A stretch of DNA of 23,995 nucleotides from a virus, in IMG/VR virus record IMGVR_UViG_3300020204_005688, positions 1 to 23,995 of that record; one strand, 5' to 3'. The notes below the pieces were generated by a model. That model was given only the letters and a program-made list of their open reading frames with translations. It was not told the DNA's origin and did no database searches. The position numbers were made by a program, and so were the translations under genes. This document shows, in pieces, positions 1 to 12,224 of this stretch (position 1 is the stretch's first letter; each line of letters opens with the position of its first letter).

Positions 1-165
1 GATTCCAGGGTTCAAGAGGGAACCAATGAAGGTCTAAGACAATCAGGAATGAAGCTAAGATGTGTTCAAAGCTGTCCTGCACAAATTGGTGCCACCCCGC
101 CTCACTGGGGTGACATGAACGAATGGTGGAACGGTCTCATGGTTCTAGTCCTGGAGAAGAATTGA
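1..165 (+). CDS. C-terminal fragment of an unrecognised protein (cut by window edge)
   Basis: Frame 1 is open from the first base and ends at TGA 163-165, giving 54 residues that end in WWNGLMVLVLEKN. The stop overlaps the ATG of the next gene (TGATG), the same coupling used at many junctions in this window, which supports a real gene end. The fragment has two cysteines (C-V-Q-S-C) and a Trp-rich end (HWGDMNEWW) but no motif that I can assign to a family. Its position at the head of a glycan cassette makes a sugar-related enzyme plausible, but that is inference only. Confidence 0.55.
   Translation, partial: DSRVQEGTNEGLRQSGMKLRCVQSCPAQIGATPPHWGDMNEWWNGLMVLVLEKN
153..159 (+). promoter_or_regulatory. 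Ribosome binding site deciding the glycosyltransferase start
   Basis: GGAGAAG lies five bases before the ATG at 165. An in-frame ATG at 123 has no comparable site and would add 14 residues (MVERSHGSSPGEEL) ahead of the beta-strand that normally opens a family 2 glycosyltransferase, so 165 is the better start. Confidence 0.6.
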
Positions 166-1097
166 TGGAAAAAGTAACATTTGGAATAGTGAATTGCAAT
201 CGACTTCATTATCTGAAGAGCTGTTATGAATCGATAGTTTCAACCACATCAGAGTATCCAGACAAGGAGATCATTGTAGTAGACAATGCATCCACTGAGT
301 CTGGCACTTTAGAATTTCTTGAAGAGCTAAAGTCTCAAGGAGTCTTAGTAGTTAGGAATGAATCTAGAGATCCAGCTAATGAGTTTGCCAAGGGTCTAAA
401 CAAAGTTTGCAGTCTTGCAACAGGAGAGTTCATCATACCGCTCCAGGGAGACATGCAGTTTGTTGTTAATGGCTGGCTTACTGAGTTTGTTAGCTTCTAT
501 CGTTCAAACATCGACACAGTTGGCTGTATCTGCCTTGATGCTCAAAGAAGAGTAACACACAACTCTCATGCAAAGTCAATGACGCATTTTTTCGGAGATG
601 GTAAGATAAAGTTCTGTTTTGATCTCGAGAGACCCCCATTCTCAGGAGCTGGAGACTGCATGTACTCTAGAAAGGCTGTAGAAAGATTCTATCCCTGGAG
701 TGAGAACAATGTCAATCACGAGGGAACGCTAGACTCTGAGACAGCTATGCTGCAAAAAGTCAAAAGGATCAAATCAGAGAATTCGATCGAGATCTACTGC
801 GCTGTTCCTGCTGTCCCAGCCTCTATTGCAATATACACCGATCCGCGCGGGACCAATGCCAGAATTAGGGGAAATCGAAGGTATGGGCAATATTGGCCTG
901 CAAAAGGTCCGAGCTCCAGGTACTATAGCATTACGTCGGTTGATCAAGCGATATTTGACTTCAATAAATTTCCAGTTTCAATAGAAGAAATTGCATCTCC
1001 CATAGGATGGTCAGCTCCGATTGATGAACATGGTTCATGGCTGAAGAAACCCATTAGGCCCGAGACAGCAAGTGAAAGCGACTACACTACGCTTTAG
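165..1097 (+). CDS. Family 2 glycosyltransferase (GT-A fold)
   Basis: 310 residues. It probably transfers a sugar from a nucleotide donor in the cytoplasm. The N-terminus is a typical GT-A Rossmann-like half: a first strand (VTFGIVNCNR, residues 4-13), then EIIVVDNAS with D40 as the expected nucleotide-contact aspartate. ATGEFIIPLQGDMQF (about 85-99) follows, with D96 in the place of the usual DXD metal-binding motif, here reduced to QGD. The C-terminal half is not recognised and may bind the acceptor. The upstream gene's stop overlaps its ATG and the next gene starts nine bases after its stop, so it is probably co-expressed with them. The GT2 family call is good; donor and acceptor are unknown. 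The degenerate DXD may mean altered metal dependence. Confidence 0.8.
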   Translation: MEKVTFGIVNCNRLHYLKSCYESIVSTTSEYPDKEIIVVDNASTESGTLEFLEELKSQGVLVVRNESRDPANEFAKGLNKVCSLATGEFIIPLQGDMQFVVNGWLTEFVSFYRSNIDTVGCICLDAQRRVTHNSHAKSMTHFFGDGKIKFCFDLERPPFSGAGDCMYSRKAVERFYPWSENNVNHEGTLDSETAMLQKVKRIKSENSIEIYCAVPAVPASIAIYTDPRGTNARIRGNRRYGQYWPAKGPSSRYYSITSVDQAIFDFNKFPVSIEEIASPIGWSAPIDEHGSWLKKPIRPETASESDYTTL

Positions 1098-1106
1098 GAG
1101 AATTAG

Positions 1107-1766
1107 GTGAATAATCAAAATTTTGAAGACATCTGGAGAGATCCGAGGTGGTCTTACCTTACATCTGGATTTAGACCCGAAGAAGGATTTACAGCCAGAT
1201 ATCCTGGAAAATCACTTCTCTTGTCGAAATACGCTTCAATGCTCCCAGAGAAAAGCAGCGTCATAGAGATTGGCTTTAACATGGGCCACGGAGCTTTCTC
1301 TTTGCTAAGAGAGGGAAAAAATATCATTGAGTTCATATCTTTTGATATCTGTTTTCATGAATACGTGAAAGAAATTTGGAGAAAGTTTTCTGAAGAATTC
1401 CCGTCTTTTCATACTGTTGAGGGAGACACAACTTTGACACTAGCTGAGATATCTCAAAGAAGGCCAGCGTCTTTTGATCTAATTCATATTGACGGAGGTC
1501 ATTCTTATGAGATAGCAAAATCAGATCTAGAGTTCTCAATAGCTCTTGCAAGAGAAGGCTCTTACATCATACTTGATGACTTTAATATTCCAGACATTCA
1601 AAAATCGTACAGTGAAATTAACAAGCGCTACCTTGATGAAGTCGAAGAAATTCACTTAACTTCAGGAGGTAGCTTGTCTGATGTTGGAAATTCCAGGCAG
1701 TCAATTTCAAAGGTCCTGAGAAGGACTTCATATGGAGATCAAAGAAGTGTATTTCTGCGACTTTGA
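1107..1766 (+). CDS. SAM-dependent methyltransferase (Methyltransf_24/TylF-like)
   Basis: 219 residues starting at GTG 1107, with AGGAG at 1096-1100 in front. It is a class I Rossmann methyltransferase: motif I is VIEIGFNMGHG (residues 52-62), the acidic end of strand 2 is D80 (ISFDI), and the family signature HIDGGHSY lies at 127-134. ILDDFN (155-160) follows, where the aspartates fit the metal-binding positions of TylF-like sugar O-methyltransferases. The length is normal for a one-domain enzyme. Its end overlaps the next gene by 35 bases in another frame. Lying between a glycosyltransferase and sugar-activating enzymes, it most likely O-methylates a sugar or glycan, but the target cannot be read from sequence. 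Confidence 0.8.
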   Translation: MNNQNFEDIWRDPRWSYLTSGFRPEEGFTARYPGKSLLLSKYASMLPEKSSVIEIGFNMGHGAFSLLREGKNIIEFISFDICFHEYVKEIWRKFSEEFPSFHTVEGDTTLTLAEISQRRPASFDLIHIDGGHSYEIAKSDLEFSIALAREGSYIILDDFNIPDIQKSYSEINKRYLDEVEEIHLTSGGSLSDVGNSRQSISKVLRRTSYGDQRSVFLRL

Positions 1767-2388
1767 AAAATTTAGAAACAAGCACCTAGCGGAGACTGCT
1801 TTCTTTTTCGGATCTGGACCTACAGTGAGAGATTTTGACATATCTCTTGCAAAGGATGCAGTTAGAATTGGAGTTAACGAGACCATATTTCTGGGATTTG
1901 AACTTGATTACTTTTTTACAGGAGATGCTGCAGATCCAAAATTTTATCAAAGAATAGAAGAATTTAACAGCTTTGAAGCTAGGATTCAGAAGTTTGTTGG
2001 GATTGACCCAAGGGATGAATTGAATATCCCCAAAAGAATACCAGGATCAGTAAAAAATTCGCTTCATTATAATACGAGGCTAAGATCGGTCTTCTCTCCA
2101 GATCCTACGATATTTCCTATCGCTAGGTGGGGATCGATTTCTTTTGATGTTATGCAAGTTCTCTCCTTTATGGGATTCAAAAAGATATACCTTGTAGGTC
2201 ATGATTGCGATTACTCAAAGGGAACATTCCATACAAGCTTCAGTACTGGAAATGGGGAAATGGTAAAGCTTCTTAGCCACTGGAATAAAATGAAAAATTT
2301 TCTTGAAAATTGTTATCCAGACTTGGAAGTATATTCTATCAATCCGGTTGCTTTGAAGATCTTCAAAGACGCAACATCTGACTTATAG
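1732..2388 (+). CDS. MptE/DUF115-like glycan-associated protein
   Basis: 218 residues from ATG 1732, preceded by AAGGA at 1721-1725. It shows the layout of the DUF115/MptE-like fold: an N-terminal nucleotide-contact loop FFGSGPTVRDF (25-35), then RIGVNET (45-51) where Asn follows a strand, then YFFTGDAAD, and near the C-terminal third IYLVGHDCDY with G156-H157-D158. This pattern (GxGPS...VN...D...GxD) is known in archaeal MptE pyrophosphokinases and in bacterial glycosylation proteins such as motility-associated factors. Here a glycan role is far more likely because of the neighbours. It could be a glycosyltransferase or a nucleotide-sugar-binding enzyme. The fold assignment is moderate and the function is inferred. 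Confidence 0.6.
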   Translation: MEIKEVYFCDFEKFRNKHLAETAFFFGSGPTVRDFDISLAKDAVRIGVNETIFLGFELDYFFTGDAADPKFYQRIEEFNSFEARIQKFVGIDPRDELNIPKRIPGSVKNSLHYNTRLRSVFSPDPTIFPIARWGSISFDVMQVLSFMGFKKIYLVGHDCDYSKGTFHTSFSTGNGEMVKLLSHWNKMKNFLENCYPDLEVYSINPVALKIFKDATSDL

Positions 2389-2397: not shown

Positions 2398-3579
2398 ATG
2401 CATTCAAATAAGAGTTCAATCCAGACTAAAAAGCTCGCAATGATCCCAGCTAGAATGGGAAGCAAGAGAGTTCCTAATAAAAATCTAAGAATGATAGATG
2501 GGAAGCCTCTAATTTCTTTCATCATAGAGGCAGTAATTGAGTCAGGGTGTTTTAAGAAAGATGAAATTTTTATCAACTCTGAATCTGAAATATTCAAAAA
2601 GATTGCGGAGATGCATGGCGTAAACTTCTATAAGAGAGATCCTTCTCTTTCAACAGATGAAGCGACAAACGATGATTTTGCAAGAGACTTTATTGAGAAA
2701 ACAGGATGCGATATTCTCTTCCAGTTTTTATCAACATCTCCCTTTTTAAACAAAGAAGAGATTTCAAAATTTGTCAACAAGATGATTGATCAAAATCTTG
2801 ATACTTTGATCTTAATCAAATCAAATCAAATTGAGTGCATTCACAACTCTACGCCAATTAATTTTAATCAGAAGAAGAAGACGCCGCCATCTCAGAGCTT
2901 GAATCCTATTTTTGCATATGCTTGCGGCATGATGTCATGGAGATCTTCAAAGTTTCTAGAAAATATGAAAAAATTTGGCGCTGCGTATCACGGAGGCGAT
3001 GGGAAGACTGGCTTCTTTGAAATTAAAGGTTTTTCCACGGTTGATATTGATACTGTTGAAGATTTTGAACTTGCAGAAGTTATTTACTCGCACATAAATA
3101 GACAGAAAAAGGTAGAGCCGAGATATTTTGATCCAGAAATTGACTCGCTTGTCGAATATGAAGAGCATGTTCCATCAATTCTTGGAAGAGACGGAGTCAA
3201 TAGCTCAGACTTTGACTCCGCGAATATCACAATTACAAAGGTTCGAGAAGTAATCGAGGAGAATAAAGACAAAGATTCTTGGCTTCGAAGGGTCGTTAAT
3301 ACAGAAAATAACAGCTGTTGCTTGATCTCTCAGCAACCTGGAGAAGGAAACAGGCTTCATTTTCACCCTAGCTGGAATGAGTGGTGGTACATTGTTGATG
3401 GAGAATGGGACTTTGAAATTAATAATGAGGTGAAAAGAGTTGTCAAAGATGATATAGTTTTTATACCTCGAAACACATGGCATAAGATTACAGCAGCTGG
3501 GAATAAACCCGCTGTTAGACTTGCTGTAAGTCGAGAAGATGTCAAACATGGTTACAGGACGAGAAATAAAAACAGCTGA
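2398..3579 (+). CDS. CMP-sugar synthetase (NeuA/KdsB-like) fused to a cupin domain
   Basis: 393 residues. Residues 12 to about 235 form a cytidylyltransferase of the acylneuraminate/Kdo type: the nucleotide-binding signature PARMGSKR is at 17-24, followed by K28-N29 and the strand IFINSES. QFLSTSPF and the family-typical end VDIDTVEDFELAEVIY follow. Such enzymes join CTP and a nonulosonic or octulosonic sugar to give CMP-sugar plus pyrophosphate. After a linker, about 290-385 is a cupin barrel: HFHPSWNEWW gives metal ligands H321, H323 and E328, and PRNTWH gives H362. Usual NeuA proteins are about 220-240 residues, so the cupin is an added domain that could isomerise, epimerise or sense a sugar. 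The 3' end overlaps the next gene by 41 bases. Sugar identity is unknown. Confidence 0.82.
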   Translation: MHSNKSSIQTKKLAMIPARMGSKRVPNKNLRMIDGKPLISFIIEAVIESGCFKKDEIFINSESEIFKKIAEMHGVNFYKRDPSLSTDEATNDDFARDFIEKTGCDILFQFLSTSPFLNKEEISKFVNKMIDQNLDTLILIKSNQIECIHNSTPINFNQKKKTPPSQSLNPIFAYACGMMSWRSSKFLENMKKFGAAYHGGDGKTGFFEIKGFSTVDIDTVEDFELAEVIYSHINRQKKVEPRYFDPEIDSLVEYEEHVPSILGRDGVNSSDFDSANITITKVREVIEENKDKDSWLRRVVNTENNSCCLISQQPGEGNRLHFHPSWNEWWYIVDGEWDFEINNEVKRVVKDDIVFIPRNTWHKITAAGNKPAVRLAVSREDVKHGYRTRNKNS

Positions 3580-4756
3580 TATAAGCTTTCACAGGATCCA
3601 GCTCGATCTGGAAAAAAGTGAAGGATCTTATATCTTTGACAATATCACACAGAGGAAATATCTAGATTTTTTTGGTATGTACTCATCTTTGCCTCTTGGT
3701 TACAATCACCCGTCTTTCTTAACAAAAGAATTTGAACAAGACATGATAAGGGTGTCAAGGGTCAAAGTTTCCAATTGCGAGATGAGAACACCAGAATTTA
3801 ATAGATTTGTTGATAATTTTTCCAGATTTGCAATTCCAAGAAGCTTCGCATCCGTTCATTTTTCTTGTACGGGTGCGCTCGCTGTTGAACATGCAATAAA
3901 ATCATGTCTGTTTCACAAGATGAGACAAGAAAAGAACAGTAATTTTGTTTCAGTTTCTTTTCTTAATTCTTTTCATGGAATAACATCGTATGGAAATTTT
4001 CTCACTGATAGATGCGGAAATGTGAAAAAAAGATTACAAGATTGCCCAAACATTGGGTGGCCAAAAGTTGATATTTCAGACTTAAGATCTTTGGAAAAAA
4101 TTTTAAGAGAAGAAAATGTCTCTTCTGTAATACTTGAACCCATTCAATGCACATTTGGAGACATTGTTGTACCTGTTGAGACATTAAATGAGATAAGATT
4201 CTTAACAGAAAAGTACAAAGTCCCGCTAATATTTGACGAGGTTCAAACCGGATTTTGTAGCACAGGAAATATCTGGTTTTTCAATAGCTTGAATTGGGAA
4301 CCTGACGTTGTAGTATTTGGAAAGAAGAGCCAAGTTTCTGGATTCTTCATCAAGGAAAACTTCTCTCAGATATTTGAAGAAGGAAATGCAGGAAGAGTTT
4401 GCGTAACGTTTGATGGAGATCTAACAGACATGGTTAGGTGCCATCACATAATTAATAAGATAAAAGAACATGAATTTAAGATATTGAAAGATGTAAAGAT
4501 TTTTGGAGAAAAAATAAGAGAACAGCTTTCTCTGATAGACGGAATTGAAAAAGTAAGAGGATCAGGCGTTTTAATTGGTTTTGACCTAATCACCCGTGGA
4601 AAAAGAGATAAGTTTGTAATGAAACTCAGAGAAAGGGGAATGATCTGTAATACAGCAGGAGAAAGATCGATAAGGCTCAGGCCTTCTCTCACGGCAACAG
4701 ATCAAGATCGAGAAGAAGCTGTTAAGTTAATTACGGAGACTATGTATGCTAACTGA
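3539..4756 (+). CDS. Class III PLP aminotransferase, L-lysine 6-transaminase-like
   Basis: 405 residues. Fold-type I, class III signatures are clear: a small-domain start YLDFFGMYSSLPLGYNHP, then TGALAVEHAIK in the PLP phosphate region. LEPIQCTFGD follows, then LIFDEVQTGF with D233 as the aspartate that pairs with the PLP pyridine nitrogen. FGKKSQVSG holds the Schiff-base lysine (K262 or K263). The FGKK.QV.G form and AVEHA resemble L-lysine epsilon-aminotransferase more than ornithine or GABA enzymes. In this cassette it may aminate a keto- or aldehyde-sugar, or make an amine donor; that is inference. An alternative ATG at 3548 would shorten it by three residues. Arginine codons are almost all AGA/AGG. 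The last 11 bases overlap the isomerase gene. Confidence 0.85.
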   Translation: MSNMVTGREIKTADISFHRIQLDLEKSEGSYIFDNITQRKYLDFFGMYSSLPLGYNHPSFLTKEFEQDMIRVSRVKVSNCEMRTPEFNRFVDNFSRFAIPRSFASVHFSCTGALAVEHAIKSCLFHKMRQEKNSNFVSVSFLNSFHGITSYGNFLTDRCGNVKKRLQDCPNIGWPKVDISDLRSLEKILREENVSSVILEPIQCTFGDIVVPVETLNEIRFLTEKYKVPLIFDEVQTGFCSTGNIWFFNSLNWEPDVVVFGKKSQVSGFFIKENFSQIFEEGNAGRVCVTFDGDLTDMVRCHHIINKIKEHEFKILKDVKIFGEKIREQLSLIDGIEKVRGSGVLIGFDLITRGKRDKFVMKLRERGMICNTAGERSIRLRPSLTATDQDREEAVKLITETMYAN

Positions 4757-5306
4757 TTTTGAGAACCTGGAGCCTACATTTGAGAGGACTGTTGGAACAC
4801 AACAATGGAAGACATTGCAGACTGATTTTAATGCTGCAGAAGATGTCTACATAATTGGAAATGGTGGAAACATGTCCGTTGCATCGCATGGTGCCTCTGA
4901 TATTTCTAGGCTAACAAACAAGCGGACATACTCGCTTGATAGTCAAAGTTTTGCCACCTCAGTTGCAAATGACTTTTCTTATGATGAGATGTTTGTAAAG
5001 TGGCTTTCTAGATACGCCACTGGAAACACAAAGTCCCTGCTGATTGGCTTATCAGGATCAGGAAATTCCAAGTCAATTCTTAAGGCGCTTGACTGGGCAA
5101 ACACAAGGTACAATTTTTCATGCGTTCTAATTTCTGGACAAAAGTCCATAGCGCTTGATCCAAAGATAAATGAAGTTTGCTTTGATGTGAAGTATTTTCA
5201 CAGTGCTGAGATTTTATCTCTTATGGCTGTTTATGAACTCATTGTTGGCTGTGGCAACGCCTGTCCTACAATAAAGTCTGAAATTATAAGAAAGTATGGA
5301 AAATAA
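4746..5306 (+). CDS. SIS-domain phosphosugar isomerase (GmhA-like)
   Basis: 186 residues, about the length of GmhA (sedoheptulose-7-phosphate isomerase). The SIS fold is marked by VYIIGNGGNMSVASHGASDISR: GNGG is the phosphate loop and the His of ASHGA matches the AQHF histidine of GmhA. LIGLSGSGNSKSI follows, the second Ser/Gly-rich phosphate-binding loop. The C-terminal helix YFHSAEILSLMAVYELI also fits GmhA. It should convert a ketose phosphate to an aldose phosphate, or the reverse, in the cytoplasm. It overlaps the aminotransferase at its start and the HAD phosphatase at its end, so isomerase and phosphatase are likely made together, as in heptose or Kdo pathways. DiaA-type DNA-replication proteins share this fold but make less sense here. 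Confidence 0.8.
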   Translation: MLTDFENLEPTFERTVGTQQWKTLQTDFNAAEDVYIIGNGGNMSVASHGASDISRLTNKRTYSLDSQSFATSVANDFSYDEMFVKWLSRYATGNTKSLLIGLSGSGNSKSILKALDWANTRYNFSCVLISGQKSIALDPKINEVCFDVKYFHSAEILSLMAVYELIVGCGNACPTIKSEIIRKYGK

Positions 5307-5730
5307 AATAGAAGATTTTTTTAAAGAGAAGAGATTTAATTCTTTTCCCGATGAGACAAAAAACATCGCAATTGATTTTGATGGAGTGATTCACAAGTGC
5401 TCAAGGGGATTTTATGACGGATCAATCTATGATGATCCTGTCGAAGGAGTGCATGAATCTCTTCAAATTATTTCAAAAAGATTTAATATCATAGTTTTTA
5501 CAGCAAAGGCAAGAGAAGATAGGCCAAAACTAAATGGAAAAACAGGAAAAGAGCTTGTGTGGGAGTGGCTAAAAAAGCACAATCTAGATCTCTTTGTTTC
5601 TGAAGTAACAGCTGAAAAACCTCGTGCTGTTGCCTACATCGATGATAAAGCGATTAAATTCATCTCCTGGGAGCAGGCACTTAAAAGCACATTTGAAATT
5701 CACTCGGAGTCAAAGGAAGAAAAGACATGA
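5296..5730 (+). CDS. HAD-superfamily phosphatase, small
   Basis: 144 residues with all four HAD motifs: I, IDFDGV with nucleophile D27 and D29; II, FTAKARE with T69; III, a lysine around K108 (TAEKPRA); and IV, YIDDKAI with D116-D117. There is almost no cap insert, so it is a minimal HAD enzyme that could act on a large substrate or a phosphosugar. It starts inside the last codons of the SIS isomerase, and its own stop overlaps the ATG of the UDP-sugar dehydrogenase. That placement suggests removal of phosphate from the isomerase product or a later intermediate, comparable to GmhB or KdsC; the exact substrate is unknown. Small HAD proteins of this kind occur in many phages. Confidence 0.75.
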   Translation: MENKIEDFFKEKRFNSFPDETKNIAIDFDGVIHKCSRGFYDGSIYDDPVEGVHESLQIISKRFNIIVFTAKAREDRPKLNGKTGKELVWEWLKKHNLDLFVSEVTAEKPRAVAYIDDKAIKFISWEQALKSTFEIHSESKEEKT

Positions 5731-6701
5731 GTATAGGTGTAATTGGACAGGGATTTGTTGGGGGCAGTCTCACTACAGTTTTTTCTGAGCGTGGTGAGAC
5801 TGTTTATGTATATGACAAAGCTGGCAAGCTTGCCACAGGTGGTATCAACGGTTTCAAGCGTGAGATCACTAGGGATTTCATCTATCCTGGATCTATCTCT
5901 GAATTTGTCCAGGAGTGCGAAGGAACGTCAGGATTTTCAGGTGTCTTCTTTATATGCGTTCCGACACCGATGTACGAGGATGGATCACCTGACGTCTCAA
6001 TTGTTGAGGACGTTCTCGAGCTTGTCTGCACAGCTCCATACACTGCTGACTCACCTCAGCGCATTGCAGTGATTAAGTCAACTGTCCCACCAGGATCGAC
6101 CGAAAGATGGAACAAGATGTTTAATGATCGAGGTCTACATGTTGTATTCAACCCTGAATTTTTAACTGAAGCAAACGCTGTGAACGATATGCGTGAGCAG
6201 AATCGCATCGTTCTTGGTGGACCTCGTCCTTACATCAACACAGTGCGTAACGTTTTTCAGCGTGCTTTTCCAAAGGTTACTATCATCAAGACTAGCTCTA
6301 CGACAGCCGAGATGGTCAAGTATGTGACAAACTGCATGCTCTCGGTCAAGGTGTCATTCGCTAATGAGGTTGCTCAGATTTGTGAAGCATTGGACTCTGA
6401 TGGACTTAACATCGATTATGATAAGGTCGTTGAGTATGCAAAGTTTGATCGTCGACTTGGTGAATCTCACTGGTCTGTTCCTGGCCCTGTTCCAACTCAT
6501 GACGGTCGATACGTTCGTGGTTTCGGTGGTCACTGCTTCCCGAAAGACATTAACGCGTTGATGAGTGTCGCCCGACAGTACGGTGTGAATCCGACCGTCA
6601 TGCAGGCTGCCTGGGACAAGAACCTTGAGGTTCGAGGCTTGGATGATAGAGATTGGGAGAAGCAAGTGGGTCGAGCTGTAAGTAAGCGGAAGAATTCATG
6701 A
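5727..6701 (+). CDS. UDP-glucose/GDP-mannose dehydrogenase family protein, short form
   Basis: 324 residues. It oxidises the C6 alcohol of a nucleotide sugar to a uronic acid using NAD. The NAD loop GVIGQGFVGG is at 4-13. FICVPTPM, KSTVPPGST, NPEFLTEANA and the central helix region EMVKYVTNCMLSVKVSFANEV all match the family. The catalytic cysteine C270 is in GFGGHCFPKDINAL. The family usually has 380-450 residues; here the C-terminal NDP-sugar-binding domain is almost absent, while the catalytic part is intact. Arginine codons are mainly CGT/CGA/CGC, with only about three AGA/AGG, opposite to the genes on its left, which points to a separate origin. It overlaps both neighbours by four bases. 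Confidence 0.88.
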   Translation: MSIGVIGQGFVGGSLTTVFSERGETVYVYDKAGKLATGGINGFKREITRDFIYPGSISEFVQECEGTSGFSGVFFICVPTPMYEDGSPDVSIVEDVLELVCTAPYTADSPQRIAVIKSTVPPGSTERWNKMFNDRGLHVVFNPEFLTEANAVNDMREQNRIVLGGPRPYINTVRNVFQRAFPKVTIIKTSSTTAEMVKYVTNCMLSVKVSFANEVAQICEALDSDGLNIDYDKVVEYAKFDRRLGESHWSVPGPVPTHDGRYVRGFGGHCFPKDINALMSVARQYGVNPTVMQAAWDKNLEVRGLDDRDWEKQVGRAVSKRKNS

Positions 6702-7579
6702 AAGCTCTAGTTACTGGAGGGGCCGGTTTCATCGGATCTCACATTGTCGATACATTGATCAAAAGAGGAGATCAAGTTATTTGTGTTGATGATGAATCAG
6801 CACCGCAAAATAATAAATTCTACTGGAATGATTCTGCCATCAATGTTCTCGCAGATATTCGCACAGTGCACCGGAGCATATATGAAGGCGTAGATGTCGT
6901 TTTTCATCTTGCAGCTCGCTCCAGGATACAGCCAACTGTAAATAATCCATCTCAGTGCTTCTCTGTCAATGTTCTTGGCACGCAAGAGGTTCTGGAATCA
7001 AGTCGTCTTGCCGGAGTGAAAAGAGTAGTGTATTCTGCATCTTCCTCTTATTATGGGCACGCATCCAGACCGCCTTTCCTGGAAGATGCACCCAAGGGTT
7101 GCGCGACTCCTTATTCACTCTCTAAGTGGCAGGGCGAAGAAGTCTGTGATCTCTACACAAGACTTTACGGACTCTCGACAGTTTCTCTTCGATATTTTAA
7201 CGTATATGGACCAAGAGAACCACTCAAGGGAGAATATGCGACTGTAATAGGCTTGTTTAGATGTCAAAGTGCCGCAGGAGAGTCAATGACTATCGTAGGC
7301 GATGGTGAACAGCGGCGAGATTTCACACATGTATTTGATGTTGTGAGAGCCAATCTCCTTGCTGCGAATAGGTGCAATGTTACGGGACCTGTTAATATTG
7401 GAACTGGTAGGAATTATTCTATTAATCAACTTGCAACCATGATCGGTGGATCCACACAAAATATTACAGATCGCGTCGGTGAGACAAGGACCACAATGGC
7501 TGACGTTACAAGGGCAGCCAGAGATCTTGACTGGAAGTCTGAATTCAGGCTTGAGGATTATATTAATGAAAAGTTGTAG
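6698..7579 (+). CDS. NAD-dependent sugar epimerase/dehydratase (extended SDR)
   Basis: 293 residues. It is an extended short-chain dehydrogenase acting on a nucleotide sugar: the Rossmann loop TGGAGFIGSH is at 6-15, D34 of CVDDE is the NAD-ribose acid, and VFHLAARSRIQ is the next signature. The active site has Ser in YSASSSYYG and the YSLSK pair (Tyr-x-x-x-Lys). RYFNVYGPRE and RRDFTHVFDVV are substrate-domain motifs of UDP-GlcNAc/UDP-glucuronate 4-epimerases and dTDP-glucose 4,6-dehydratases. A 4-epimerase acting on the uronic acid made by the gene before it (ATGA overlap) is the simplest reading. It is slightly shorter than typical (310-340). Arginine codon use is intermediate between its neighbours. 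Confidence 0.85.
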   Translation: MKALVTGGAGFIGSHIVDTLIKRGDQVICVDDESAPQNNKFYWNDSAINVLADIRTVHRSIYEGVDVVFHLAARSRIQPTVNNPSQCFSVNVLGTQEVLESSRLAGVKRVVYSASSSYYGHASRPPFLEDAPKGCATPYSLSKWQGEEVCDLYTRLYGLSTVSLRYFNVYGPREPLKGEYATVIGLFRCQSAAGESMTIVGDGEQRRDFTHVFDVVRANLLAANRCNVTGPVNIGTGRNYSINQLATMIGGSTQNITDRVGETRTTMADVTRAARDLDWKSEFRLEDYINEKL

Positions 7580-9683: not shown

Positions 9684-10843
9684 TGAAGATAGTAATTAGA
9701 GCCCCTCTTCTCAGCATTTCTGGATACGGGCAGCACAGTAGGCAGGTTTTTGAGGCTGTAAAGAAGATAACAGGTGCAGATGTTTCCACGCAGATCGTTC
9801 AGTGGGGAAATACATCCTGGAATATCGATATCGACGCTGAGAATGGACAGGTTGGAGAGATTATGCGCCTCTCTACAGACAAGCAAAAAGACTTCGATGT
9901 CTCAATTCAGGTGCAGCTTCCCGATGAATGGACTACAGAGCTTGCAAAGATAAACATAGGTGTGACCGCTGCAGTCGAAACAGACATTTGCAACAAATCC
10001 TGGATTGACAGTTGCAACAAGATGTCTGCAATTGTCGTTCCTTCAAAATTCACAAAAGGAGTCCTAACGAGAACAGGAGAAGTTTTAGTTCCGATTCACG
10101 TGATTCCTGAGTGGTTCATCCCAGAAGTCCAGAATTCACAAAATTCAATTGATATACCTCTTCGAACAAACTTCAACTTTCTGATTGTTAGTCAGCTCAC
10201 TGCTATTGATTCTGATATTGATAGAAAAAATGTTATGAATACAATTAGATGGATATGCGAGACTTTCAAGGATGACAAAGATGTAGGAATAGTCATAAAA
10301 ACAAATAGCGGAAGAGGAACTGCACTTGACAAAATGGTGACCAGCCAGGCAATAAAGTCAATAGTGGCAGGAGCAAGAGGAAATAGTAAGATTCCTGTCT
10401 ACTTTGTGCATGGAAATATGACAAACTCTGAAATTTCAGCGATGTATAGACATCCAAAGATCAAAGCACTAGTCAGTCTTACACGGGGCGAAGGATTTGG
10501 ATTGCCGCTACTCGAGGCTGCTGCATCTGGCTTGCCGGTCATAGCGACTGACTGGTCAGCTCACACAGAGTTTTTAAATTTAGGAAAGTGGATAAAAACT
10601 GAGTACAAGCTAGTTGAGATACCAGAAAGAAGAGTAGACAATAGAATATTTGTCAAAGGATCAAAATGGGCTGATCCTACTGAAGATACTTTTAAGAGAA
10701 AGATTAAGAAATTTAGAGAATCAAGTGAGATTCCCAAGCAGTGGGCAAATGACCTTGCTCAACTTTGCATTGATAATTTTTCCAGAGAATCAATTATGAA
10801 GAAGTATGAGTCTTTTTTCAAAGAGATTCTAGTTAATGATTGA
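9683..10843 (+). CDS. GT-B glycosyltransferase, family 4-like (second of a pair)
   Basis: 386 residues. It begins KIVIRAPLLSISGYGQHSRQVFEAV, again a GT-B N-terminal domain with a Gly loop (SGYG) near the start. The donor domain has NFLIVSQLTAID, VGIVIKTNSG and VYFVHGNM. The EX7E motif is RGEGFGLPLLEAAASGLPVIA, with E270 and E278, followed by DWSAHTEF. It is a different sequence from the preceding gene, so the pair is not a recent duplication; two transfers in series on the same acceptor are an attractive idea. It overlaps the previous stop (TGATG) and the next gene by eight bases. Donor sugar and acceptor are unknown. Confidence 0.83.
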   Translation: MKIVIRAPLLSISGYGQHSRQVFEAVKKITGADVSTQIVQWGNTSWNIDIDAENGQVGEIMRLSTDKQKDFDVSIQVQLPDEWTTELAKINIGVTAAVETDICNKSWIDSCNKMSAIVVPSKFTKGVLTRTGEVLVPIHVIPEWFIPEVQNSQNSIDIPLRTNFNFLIVSQLTAIDSDIDRKNVMNTIRWICETFKDDKDVGIVIKTNSGRGTALDKMVTSQAIKSIVAGARGNSKIPVYFVHGNMTNSEISAMYRHPKIKALVSLTRGEGFGLPLLEAAASGLPVIATDWSAHTEFLNLGKWIKTEYKLVEIPERRVDNRIFVKGSKWADPTEDTFKRKIKKFRESSEIPKQWANDLAQLCIDNFSRESIMKKYESFFKEILVND

Positions 10844-11135
10844 GTTCTTTTTTTCAATTACAGTTATTCTTCTTTCGATTTCGGTATACTACAATATCAA
10901 GTTTGGAATATTTATCCTCAACATCATTGACTTAATCGAAGAAAGTCTTGATGCTCTTGATGAAAAGTACAGGATATTCAATAAAATTCTCGAAAAACCT
11001 GTATTCTTTGATTCTGTAGAAATCAGACAGGTAATACAAGAGATTAAATCCTGCCAGGAGCTTTTGCTGGTTATTGCAAATAAAATTTCAAAGCCGGGGA
11101 GATCTATCACAGATGAAAAAGAACAGAAAGAGTAG
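10836..11135 (+). CDS. Small single-span membrane protein, unknown function
   Basis: 99 residues. Residues 2 to about 34 are one long hydrophobic stretch (FFFSITVILLSISVYY then FGIFILNIIDLI), most simply one membrane anchor without a signal-peptidase site. The rest is charged and helix-forming (ESLDALDEKYRIFNKILEK), with a C-terminal tail rich in Lys/Glu, and may form a coiled coil in the cytoplasm. It overlaps the glycosyltransferase before it and the sigma factor after it, so it is translated with them. I do not recognise a family. Roles such as membrane docking of the neighbouring glycosyltransferases or a lysis accessory are guesses. Confidence 0.6.
   Translation: MIEFFFSITVILLSISVYYNIKFGIFILNIIDLIEESLDALDEKYRIFNKILEKPVFFDSVEIRQVIQEIKSCQELLLVIANKISKPGRSITDEKEQKE
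11096..11101 (+). promoter_or_regulatory. Ribosome binding site deciding the late sigma start
   Basis: GGGGAG is 11 bases before ATG 11113, a little long but the only purine-rich site. A TTG at 11074 in the same frame would add 13 residues inside the preceding gene with no site near it. Confidence 0.45.
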
Positions 11136-11835
11136 ATCTCCCGCTAAGAATAGTTTAAAATTATACTTTCACGCAGGAACTCATGATGCCATCGTTAAGT
11201 TTCAAAGTGAGACAGACGATGAGATGAGACAGAAAATGTACGAGCAAGAAATATTGCCTGCTTTTACGAAGCTGGTAGAGAACCTGATCTTCATTCATGG
11301 TGCAAATGCGCATGTAGCGGTTGATGAATTCAAGAATGATTGTGTGAGCTTTCTCTATGAGAAAATGAAGAAATTTGACGATTCTCGTGGAACTAAAGCA
11401 TTCTCTTACTTTAATGTCGTGGCAAAGAATTGGATCATCATGAGGATGAGACAGAAAATCAAGCACACCAAGAAGCACATCAACATTGATGATAAAACAA
11501 TTGTCTCTGAGATGGAAGTTTTAAACGTCGTAGAGCCGACATTTGAGATTCATGGTTCAGCCGGCAAGAAGACAATCCAAACAGAGCAGCTTGGCCTGAT
11601 GTTTAATGAGCTTTCTGATCGAATTGAACAGGATCATGAGAAGATTTGCCTTGAAGCAATTGAGAAGCTTTTTCAGAATATTGACGATATCGATTTCTTC
11701 AACAAGCGAGCAGTCTTTGTCTACATAAGAGAGATGACCAATCTAAACACTAAACAGATATCAACCGCGATGTCGTCAATCAAGAAACACTATAGAGAGA
11801 CTATGAAAGAGTGCGAGTTTGACATATTTGACTAA
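11113..11835 (+). CDS. gp55: Late-transcription sigma factor, T4 gp55-like
   Basis: 240 residues from ATG 11113. T4-type gp55 is a minimal sigma-70 relative that lets host RNA polymerase use late promoters (TATAAATA). The core region-2-like segment is LYEKMKKFDDSRGTKAFSYFNVVAKNWIIMRMRQK, with the family-typical FD..RG.KAFSYF..IA run followed by a basic helix that should contact core polymerase and the -10 box. An early piece (YFHAGTHDAIVKFQ) and the hydrophobic helix LVENLIFIHGA precede it. The C-terminal third is helical and ends in an acidic tail, CEFDIFD, like the clamp-binding tail of gp55. The length is near other T4-like late sigmas (about 150-240). It lies just before the structural genes it would switch on. 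Confidence 0.75.
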   Translation: MKKNRKSRSPAKNSLKLYFHAGTHDAIVKFQSETDDEMRQKMYEQEILPAFTKLVENLIFIHGANAHVAVDEFKNDCVSFLYEKMKKFDDSRGTKAFSYFNVVAKNWIIMRMRQKIKHTKKHINIDDKTIVSEMEVLNVVEPTFEIHGSAGKKTIQTEQLGLMFNELSDRIEQDHEKICLEAIEKLFQNIDDIDFFNKRAVFVYIREMTNLNTKQISTAMSSIKKHYRETMKECEFDIFD

Positions 11836-11843
11836 GGTGATGA

Positions 11844-12224
11844 ATGCCAAAAAATAGCGCAGATGCTGAAATGATAAACGATCAAATGAACATACTCAAG
11901 GAAAAAGAGGGAAAGGTTGCGAGATTTGAAGGCCTCCTTGAGTCTATTGATGGTCTTGATAGCAAGAAGAAGGTTCTATGGATCGAGATATACAGAAATG
12001 CTATCACAGACAGGGAGAGCGCATCAATTCTTTTCACCGACACAATTATACAGCTAAAAGGAAATGCTGCAAACCATAGCATTCTAGGCCCTGTTGTAGT
12101 TAAATACATAGAAAGAATGTCGAGGGCGAACGACCAGCTTATAAAGCTGGCTGAAATTATTACGAGTGAGGACAACAAACCTCTCGACACAAACTCAATA
12201 TTCGACCAAATATCTGAGGATTGA
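11844..12224 (+). CDS. Conserved-looking phage helical protein, unknown function
   Basis: 126 residues from ATG 11844, with a weak site (AAGGTGATGA) ahead. It is predicted all-helical and charged: a helix ILKEKEGKVARFEGLLESIDGLDSKKKVLWIEIYRNAITDRESAS, a middle helix ILFTDTIIQL, then YIERMSRANDQLIKLAEII and an acidic end SIFDQISED. The KKKVLWIEIYRNAI and YIERMSRANDQLIKLAE segments look like a small phage protein that is common in T4-like marine phages, but I cannot name it with confidence; a DNA-packaging (small terminase-like) or baseplate-assembly role are both possible. It sits between the sigma factor and the spike gene; the stop overlaps the next start (TGATG). Confidence 0.6.
   Translation: MPKNSADAEMINDQMNILKEKEGKVARFEGLLESIDGLDSKKKVLWIEIYRNAITDRESASILFTDTIIQLKGNAANHSILGPVVVKYIERMSRANDQLIKLAEIITSEDNKPLDTNSIFDQISED
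12216..12220 (+). promoter_or_regulatory. Ribosome binding site before the gp5-like gene
   Basis: GAGGA precedes a TTG (12221) and two ATG codons (12224 and 12227). The spacing suits ATG 12224 or 12227; TTG 12221 directly abuts the site and is unlikely. Confidence 0.45.

Follow-up and report, generated by a model that had tools for sequence, protein, structure and literature searches.

A phage-borne CMP-sugar synthetase–cupin fusion beside what looks like an uncharacterised amino-sugar pathway

Introduction

To our knowledge, CMP-activated sugars are few in biology (the sialic acids, Pse, Leg, Kdo and their kin), and nearly all of them derive from NeuB or KdsA enzymes. The locus studied here raises the question of what a phage would do with a single protein that joins a CMP-sugar synthetase to a cupin. 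The gene lies on an IMG/VR virus contig (IMGVR_UViG_3300020204_005688) that was analysed over its whole length of 23,995 bases, referred to below as the window. Baseplate wedge genes (phrog_219, phrog_10646) mark the contig as a fragment of a marine, contractile-tailed phage. The fusion and its neighbours look like part of an uncharacterised amino-sugar pathway. Found in several bacterial phyla and in marine phages that are abundant, a conserved cluster that combines CMP activation with a cupin, usually without a linked NeuB or KdsA, suggests that cell surfaces and flagella bear a sugar not yet characterised. For phages, if true, such a cluster would be a route to alter the envelope of the host or the phage particle itself.

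Domain architecture and structure models

The 393-residue frame holds both domains that a sequence-only reading had assigned to it, with PARMGSKR at residues 17-24 and the putative metal ligands H321, H323, E328 and H362 where that reading placed them. CTP_transf_3 (PF02348) matches residues 14-134 (E 1.6e-22, 80.9 bits against a Pfam gathering score of 22.6) and Cupin_2 (PF07883) residues 311-377 (E 4.6e-14, 52.3 bits against 27.2). Both Pfam families also match in 47/47 aligned homologues.

The first half had been described as NeuA/KdsB-type, and the NeuA side of that description fits better. The PseF model (TIGR03584) aligns to residues 13-231 with E 1.5e-26 (93.4 bits, cut-off 205.7), whereas the best KdsB model gives E 2.6e-11 (43.1 bits, cut-off 193); none of the PseF, NeuA and KdsB equivalog cut-offs among the NCBIfam models is reached. 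By these profile scores the synthetase half is nearer to NeuA/PseF than to KdsB, and a KdsB identity is rejected because the score falls both below its cut-off and below PseF. The fold, the CTP-site motif and the Asp pair are common to NeuA, PseF and CMP-Kdn synthetases (PF02348), from which the fusion differs in its divergent substrate region and its extra cupin. The CTP-site residues are R19, G21, S22, K28, N29, R80 and T113-S114-P115, with D216/D218 as the metal Asp pair. Across 47 aligned homologues R19, S22, K28, N29, N60, R80, T113, S114, P115 and D216 are invariant, and D218 is kept in 46/47. The stretch of the substrate pocket (about residues 140-200) is divergent and aligns poorly to solved enzymes, so the substrate sugar cannot be read from this half.

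The cupin half carries a germin motif, G315-x5-H321-x-H323-x4-E328-x6-G335. Its metal set is intact, as originally described: H321, H323 and E328 are invariant in the 47 homologues, together with R319, W326 and W337, and H362 is kept in all 46 that are ungapped at this position. An AlphaFold2 model built from the homologue alignment (mean pLDDT 92.6, pTM 0.81) bears out the assignment. The cupin half is a predicted β-barrel, with strands at residues 295-301, 306-312, 328-334, 336-341, 344-349, 353-356, 362-367 and 372-378, mostly at pLDDT above 90. The top Foldseek matches in the PDB (9t4z, 1qwj, 1eyr, 9ftc) all cover the first half, where the best structural matches are to synthetases of CMP-Kdn, CMP-Neu5Ac and CMP-Pse (TMt 0.84-0.85 against 9t4z and 1qwj). 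Cupins are among the structural matches in a library of viral protein structures, in which no structure spans both halves (best TMq 0.46).

A nucleotidyltransferase followed by a cupin isomerase in one chain is also the plan of ManC/AlgA (GMP_PMI), although the first half of ManC belongs to PF00483 and that of the fusion to CTP_transf_3. Membership of the ManC family is rejected: TIGR01479 scores 15.6 bits against a cut-off of 372.95, over the cupin alone. A second C-terminal domain likewise occurs in vertebrate CMP-sialic acid synthetase (an N-domain and a C-domain) and in NeuA proteins with an esterase-like domain. In both the vertebrate and the bifunctional NeuA proteins this partner domain is not a cupin. 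The C-domain of the vertebrate enzyme has been discussed previously (PMC8636478).

Distribution of the fusion

A frameshift or chimeric contig is rejected as the origin of the fusion by the intact frame and by 51 independent intact fusions, proteins with both signature motifs in one open frame (36 viral, 15 from bacterial or archaeal bins). Among the viral contigs of IMG/VR, a single-sequence scan located the full-chain fusion at 17 loci (48-65% identical) and a profile scan at 38. A scan of bacterial and archaeal genomes returned 44 loci, about half of them covering the full chain, in SAR86, Marinimicrobia, SAR324, SAR116, Pelagibacteraceae, Alteromonas, Omnitrophota, Planctomycetota, Margulisiibacteriota and others. 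In an alteromonad-order genome other than the two described below, synthetase and cupin are two adjacent frames, with an aminotransferase next.

The sequence-only reading knew of no described phage case. No precedent turned up in tblastn searches of 50,697 cultured-phage records, among solved structures, in the viral structure library or in the literature searched, yet the fusion is no phage-only novelty, since diverse bacteria carry it as well. Plasmids searched by tblastn did not yield the fusion either. Among the papers searched, none treats this cytidylyltransferase–cupin architecture, including those on TIGR04425, dehydroquinate synthase, sugar phosphate cyclases and flagellin glycosylation. 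The cyanophage 'cytidylyltransferase' of PMC9146016 is treated there as the glycerol-3-phosphate type. As far as these collections and this literature show, the layout is real, widespread and previously uncommented.

In a phylogenetic tree, the window protein belongs to a clade of nine members, all of them viral (SH-aLRT 99). Viral and bacterial fusions are intermingled in the tree, with no fewer than two changes and five at best. The fusion on one contig binned as Thaumarchaeota (L019, JACAFS010000027.1, 1-13864) is separated by hardly any distance in the tree from that of a phage locus (L007); since the gene order of the phage is shared too, the contig probably comes from a phage and was mis-binned.

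The gene run in the window

The fusion gene sits in a gene run that begins at the contig edge (Table 1), in the order GT2, methyltransferase, GT42-like transferase, fusion, class III aminotransferase, SIS isomerase, HAD-like protein, nucleotide-sugar dehydrogenase and GalE-type epimerase. Immediately before the fusion lies the gene for a predicted CMP-sugar transferase. Its match to a PHROG sialyltransferase (E 2.3e-4) is below significance for function by itself, and its AlphaFold2 model reaches a pLDDT of only 68.3, with TM about 0.5. Of the PDB matches at E<=0.001, 12/13 are CstII/Cst sialyltransferases, namely the Campylobacter Cst enzymes of GT42. Downstream, the aminotransferase gene shares 41 bases with the fusion gene; its product retains the PLP lysine motif FGKK in alignment and is nearest in the PDB to lysine 6-aminotransferase. 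The PDB matches of the SIS protein are phosphoheptose isomerases. Neither a cyclase nor a FabG-type SDR was seen in the window, in which the run is cut by the contig edge and may be incomplete.

Two annotations in the run deserve comment. The PHROG matched by the small HAD-like protein is called 'phosphoheptose isomerase' and its cultured-phage relatives are called polynucleotide kinase; both names seem wrong because the motifs look HAD. In the UGDH-type dehydrogenase (324 aa), matches are limited to the first two UGDH domains, and none to the C-terminal UDP-binding domain was reported.

Table 1. Features of the fusion gene and the surrounding gene run, with positions in the window
Feature	Position	Strand	Evidence or remark
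Glycosyltransferase family 2	123..1097	+	same gene run
Methyltransferase (Methyltransf_24)	1107..1766	+	same gene run
Predicted CMP-sugar transferase, GT42/CstII-like	1732..2388	+	directly upstream of the fusion
NeuA-like CMP-sugar synthetase/cupin fusion	2398..3579	+	393 aa, no internal stop
CMP-sugar synthetase half, residues 11-231	2428..3090	+	Pfam CTP_transf_3, PseF model, conservation, Foldseek
Cupin module, residues 250-387	3145..3558	+	Pfam Cupin_2; ligands H321, H323, E328, H362
Class III aminotransferase	3539..4756	+	Pfam Aminotran_3, E 4.3e-56
SIS-domain sugar-phosphate isomerase, GmhA-like	4746..5306	+	SIS_2; TIGR00441 E 4.8e-15, below cut-off
Small HAD-like protein, possible phosphatase	5296..5730	+	phrog_1238 E 3.6e-16; DFDGVI ... 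YIDDK motifs read from sequence
Nucleotide-sugar dehydrogenase (UGDH type)	5727..6701	+	same gene run
NAD-dependent epimerase/dehydratase (GalE type)	6698..7579	+	same gene run

Neighbours across loci

Over 82 sampled loci, the commonest neighbours of the fusion are SIS proteins (55), FabG-like SDRs (55), aminotransferases (51) and an AroB-like cyclase (42); bacterial loci additionally carry Gfo/Idh and D-2-hydroxyacid dehydrogenases. This cyclase corresponds to TIGR04425 (P_lya_rel_AroB, 'AroB-related putative sugar phosphate phospholyase (cyclizing)') and scores above cut-off in Alteromonas and in 6/12 viral records. A small HAD-like gene is found at fusion loci where the cyclase is missing. 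The counts (HAD vs cyclase 3/29, 0 both; p 0.013), drawn from few lineages, are suggestive of mutual exclusion.

Putative users of CMP-sugars adjoin the fusion, as seen from the CstII-like gene directly upstream in the window and from a GT29-like gene in the same place in 16/36 viral cases. The GT29-like family, of the Pfam sialyltransferase clan, occurs at 35 loci. At four loci (L014 6062-7987, L068 6078-7985, L072 6085-8007, L083 6057-7979) the protein encoded just before the fusion is some 640 aa long and contains the GT29-like transferase, perhaps together with a second domain.

Aminotransferases and a second SDR, here called SDR2, replace each other at fusion loci. Where the flanks are long enough to tell, 29 loci carry the aminotransferase alone of the two and 6 carry SDR2 alone; no locus combines them, and 4 loci lack both (Fisher p 6e-5). 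The split is partly confounded with lineage, since every SDR2 in this set comes from a bacterial locus. Within the bacterial loci alone the corresponding counts are 4, 6, none and 1. The cupin module also exists on its own, as a protein of some 140 aa (L051-L061). At L051-L060 (near 9980-11900) it forms a conserved trio with a FabG-like SDR and a free CTP transferase, in Prochlorococcus (cyanobacteria), SAR116, alphaproteobacteria, Bdellovibrionaceae, Spirochaetales and others. The SDR2 proteins of bacterial fusion loci without the aminotransferase form one clade in the tree with the SDRs of the trio; cupin, SDR2 and synthetase thus belong together even when unfused.

Proposed function and alternatives

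The fusion is probably a bifunctional isomerase or epimerase and CMP-sugar synthetase on a ManC-like plan, making an amino sugar of unusual type that is activated with CMP, in most cases where the phage encodes no NeuB or KdsA. Like NeuA, the synthetase half would move CMP from CTP to an acidic sugar of the ulosonate type, attaching it at the anomeric hydroxyl, and the metal-dependent cupin half would isomerise or epimerise a carbonyl-bearing intermediate of the same pathway, the two steps sharing a polypeptide as they do in ManC. The class III aminotransferase whose gene overlaps the fusion gene in the window would aminate the intermediate just before or after the cupin step, and the upstream GT42-like transferase would spend the CMP-amino sugar to decorate a surface glycan of the host envelope or virion. 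We infer the CTP specificity, the carbonyl substrate of the cupin, the order of steps, the identity of the sugar and the acceptor from these comparisons. Since reductase and transaminase could be swapped only if both consume a carbonyl, the cupin would act beside a ketone: it may isomerise or epimerise next to this group, the carbonyl being reduced or aminated before or after, and the fused synthetase would then add CMP. The sequence-only reading suggested that the cupin could act on the sugar ahead of its activation, as an epimerase or isomerase; this agrees with the gene context, from which the cupin reaction itself is deduced. Because the two steps lie within one soluble protein, the substrate can be hunted directly.

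That reading had also offered sensing as a role for the cupin. A non-catalytic regulatory domain, one that adjusts the synthetase on binding a metal, the sugar or the CMP-sugar, would fit the matches of AraC_binding, a Pfam family of sugar-sensing cupins, in 46/47 homologues, but the four metal ligands together with N305, N318, R319, W326 and W337 are conserved across phyla, beyond what a sensor needs, and the free cupin lies beside an SDR and a CTP transferase like a pathway enzyme. Sensing is less favoured on these grounds, above all the full conservation of the metal ligands, and we consider it unlikely.

A second alternative concerns the supply of the sugar. Neither NeuB nor KdsA is found in 28/32 viral records, which are fragments and can miss genes; in two large records (G411, 128 kb; G412, 123 kb) NeuB, KdsA and TIGR04425 are all absent. 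The host would therefore supply the acidic sugar, or the cluster would make one otherwise. Host supply is plausible in such records, and the NeuA half might then simply re-activate an ordinary host Kdo or nonulosonic acid, the cluster being a relic or a generic cell-surface cassette and the cupin incidental. KdsA is present in two viral records, one of which (L005) has KdsB and GT29 too. In L005, however, a separate CTP_transf_3 gene stands beside KdsA, which makes the fusion dispensable for Kdo; the missed equivalog cut-offs also speak against an ordinary substrate, and the strong conservation of the cupin against a relic. This alternative appears distinctly improbable. The KdsA-like and CTP_transf_3 genes of L005 (5355-6820) lie beside both the aminotransferase and the fusion.

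Decarboxylation or oxygenation by the cupin, after the manner of OxdC or quercetinase as its nearest solved relatives by sequence, is very improbable: the matches to MncA (2vqa), OxdC and quercetin dioxygenase are weak (36-49 bits over 65-80 residues), reflect a shared motif uninformative on chemistry, and neither reaction is evidently needed in a CMP-sugar pathway.

Candidate sugars and the alteromonad cluster

For the preferred bifunctional enzyme, the candidate sugars weighed from the gene set were Kdo8N, a C7-cyclitol and a ulosonate made via a D-2-hydroxyacid dehydrogenase, with none favoured over the others. A more specific scheme is possible, if on the doubtful side. The fusion could be the activating enzyme of a so far undescribed NeuB-independent pathway in which the AroB-like phospholyase TIGR04425 cyclises a sugar phosphate and oxidation and amination follow. 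The product would be an amino sugar outside the classical types, perhaps carbocyclic, activated with CMP, intended for bacterial flagellin and envelope glycans and borrowed by marine phages. TIGR04425 is a partner of the fusion at the loci counted above and was not seen in the 24-kb window.

Two alteromonads share the conserved order SIS, Gfo/Idh, SDR, cyclase, 2-hydroxyacid dehydrogenase, SDR2 and fusion, and in both the cluster adjoins flagellin, FleQ and FliF (L029 5009-18581, L088 1843-17423). The flagellin neighbourhood is the usual place of CMP-nonulosonate genes. The seven-gene cluster of TIGR04425 and fusion is a candidate for a new flagellin glycosylation island. In bacterial loci without the aminotransferase, a DUF4862 protein follows the fusion or SDR2 (L021 11858-12631, L025, L026, L031, L034).
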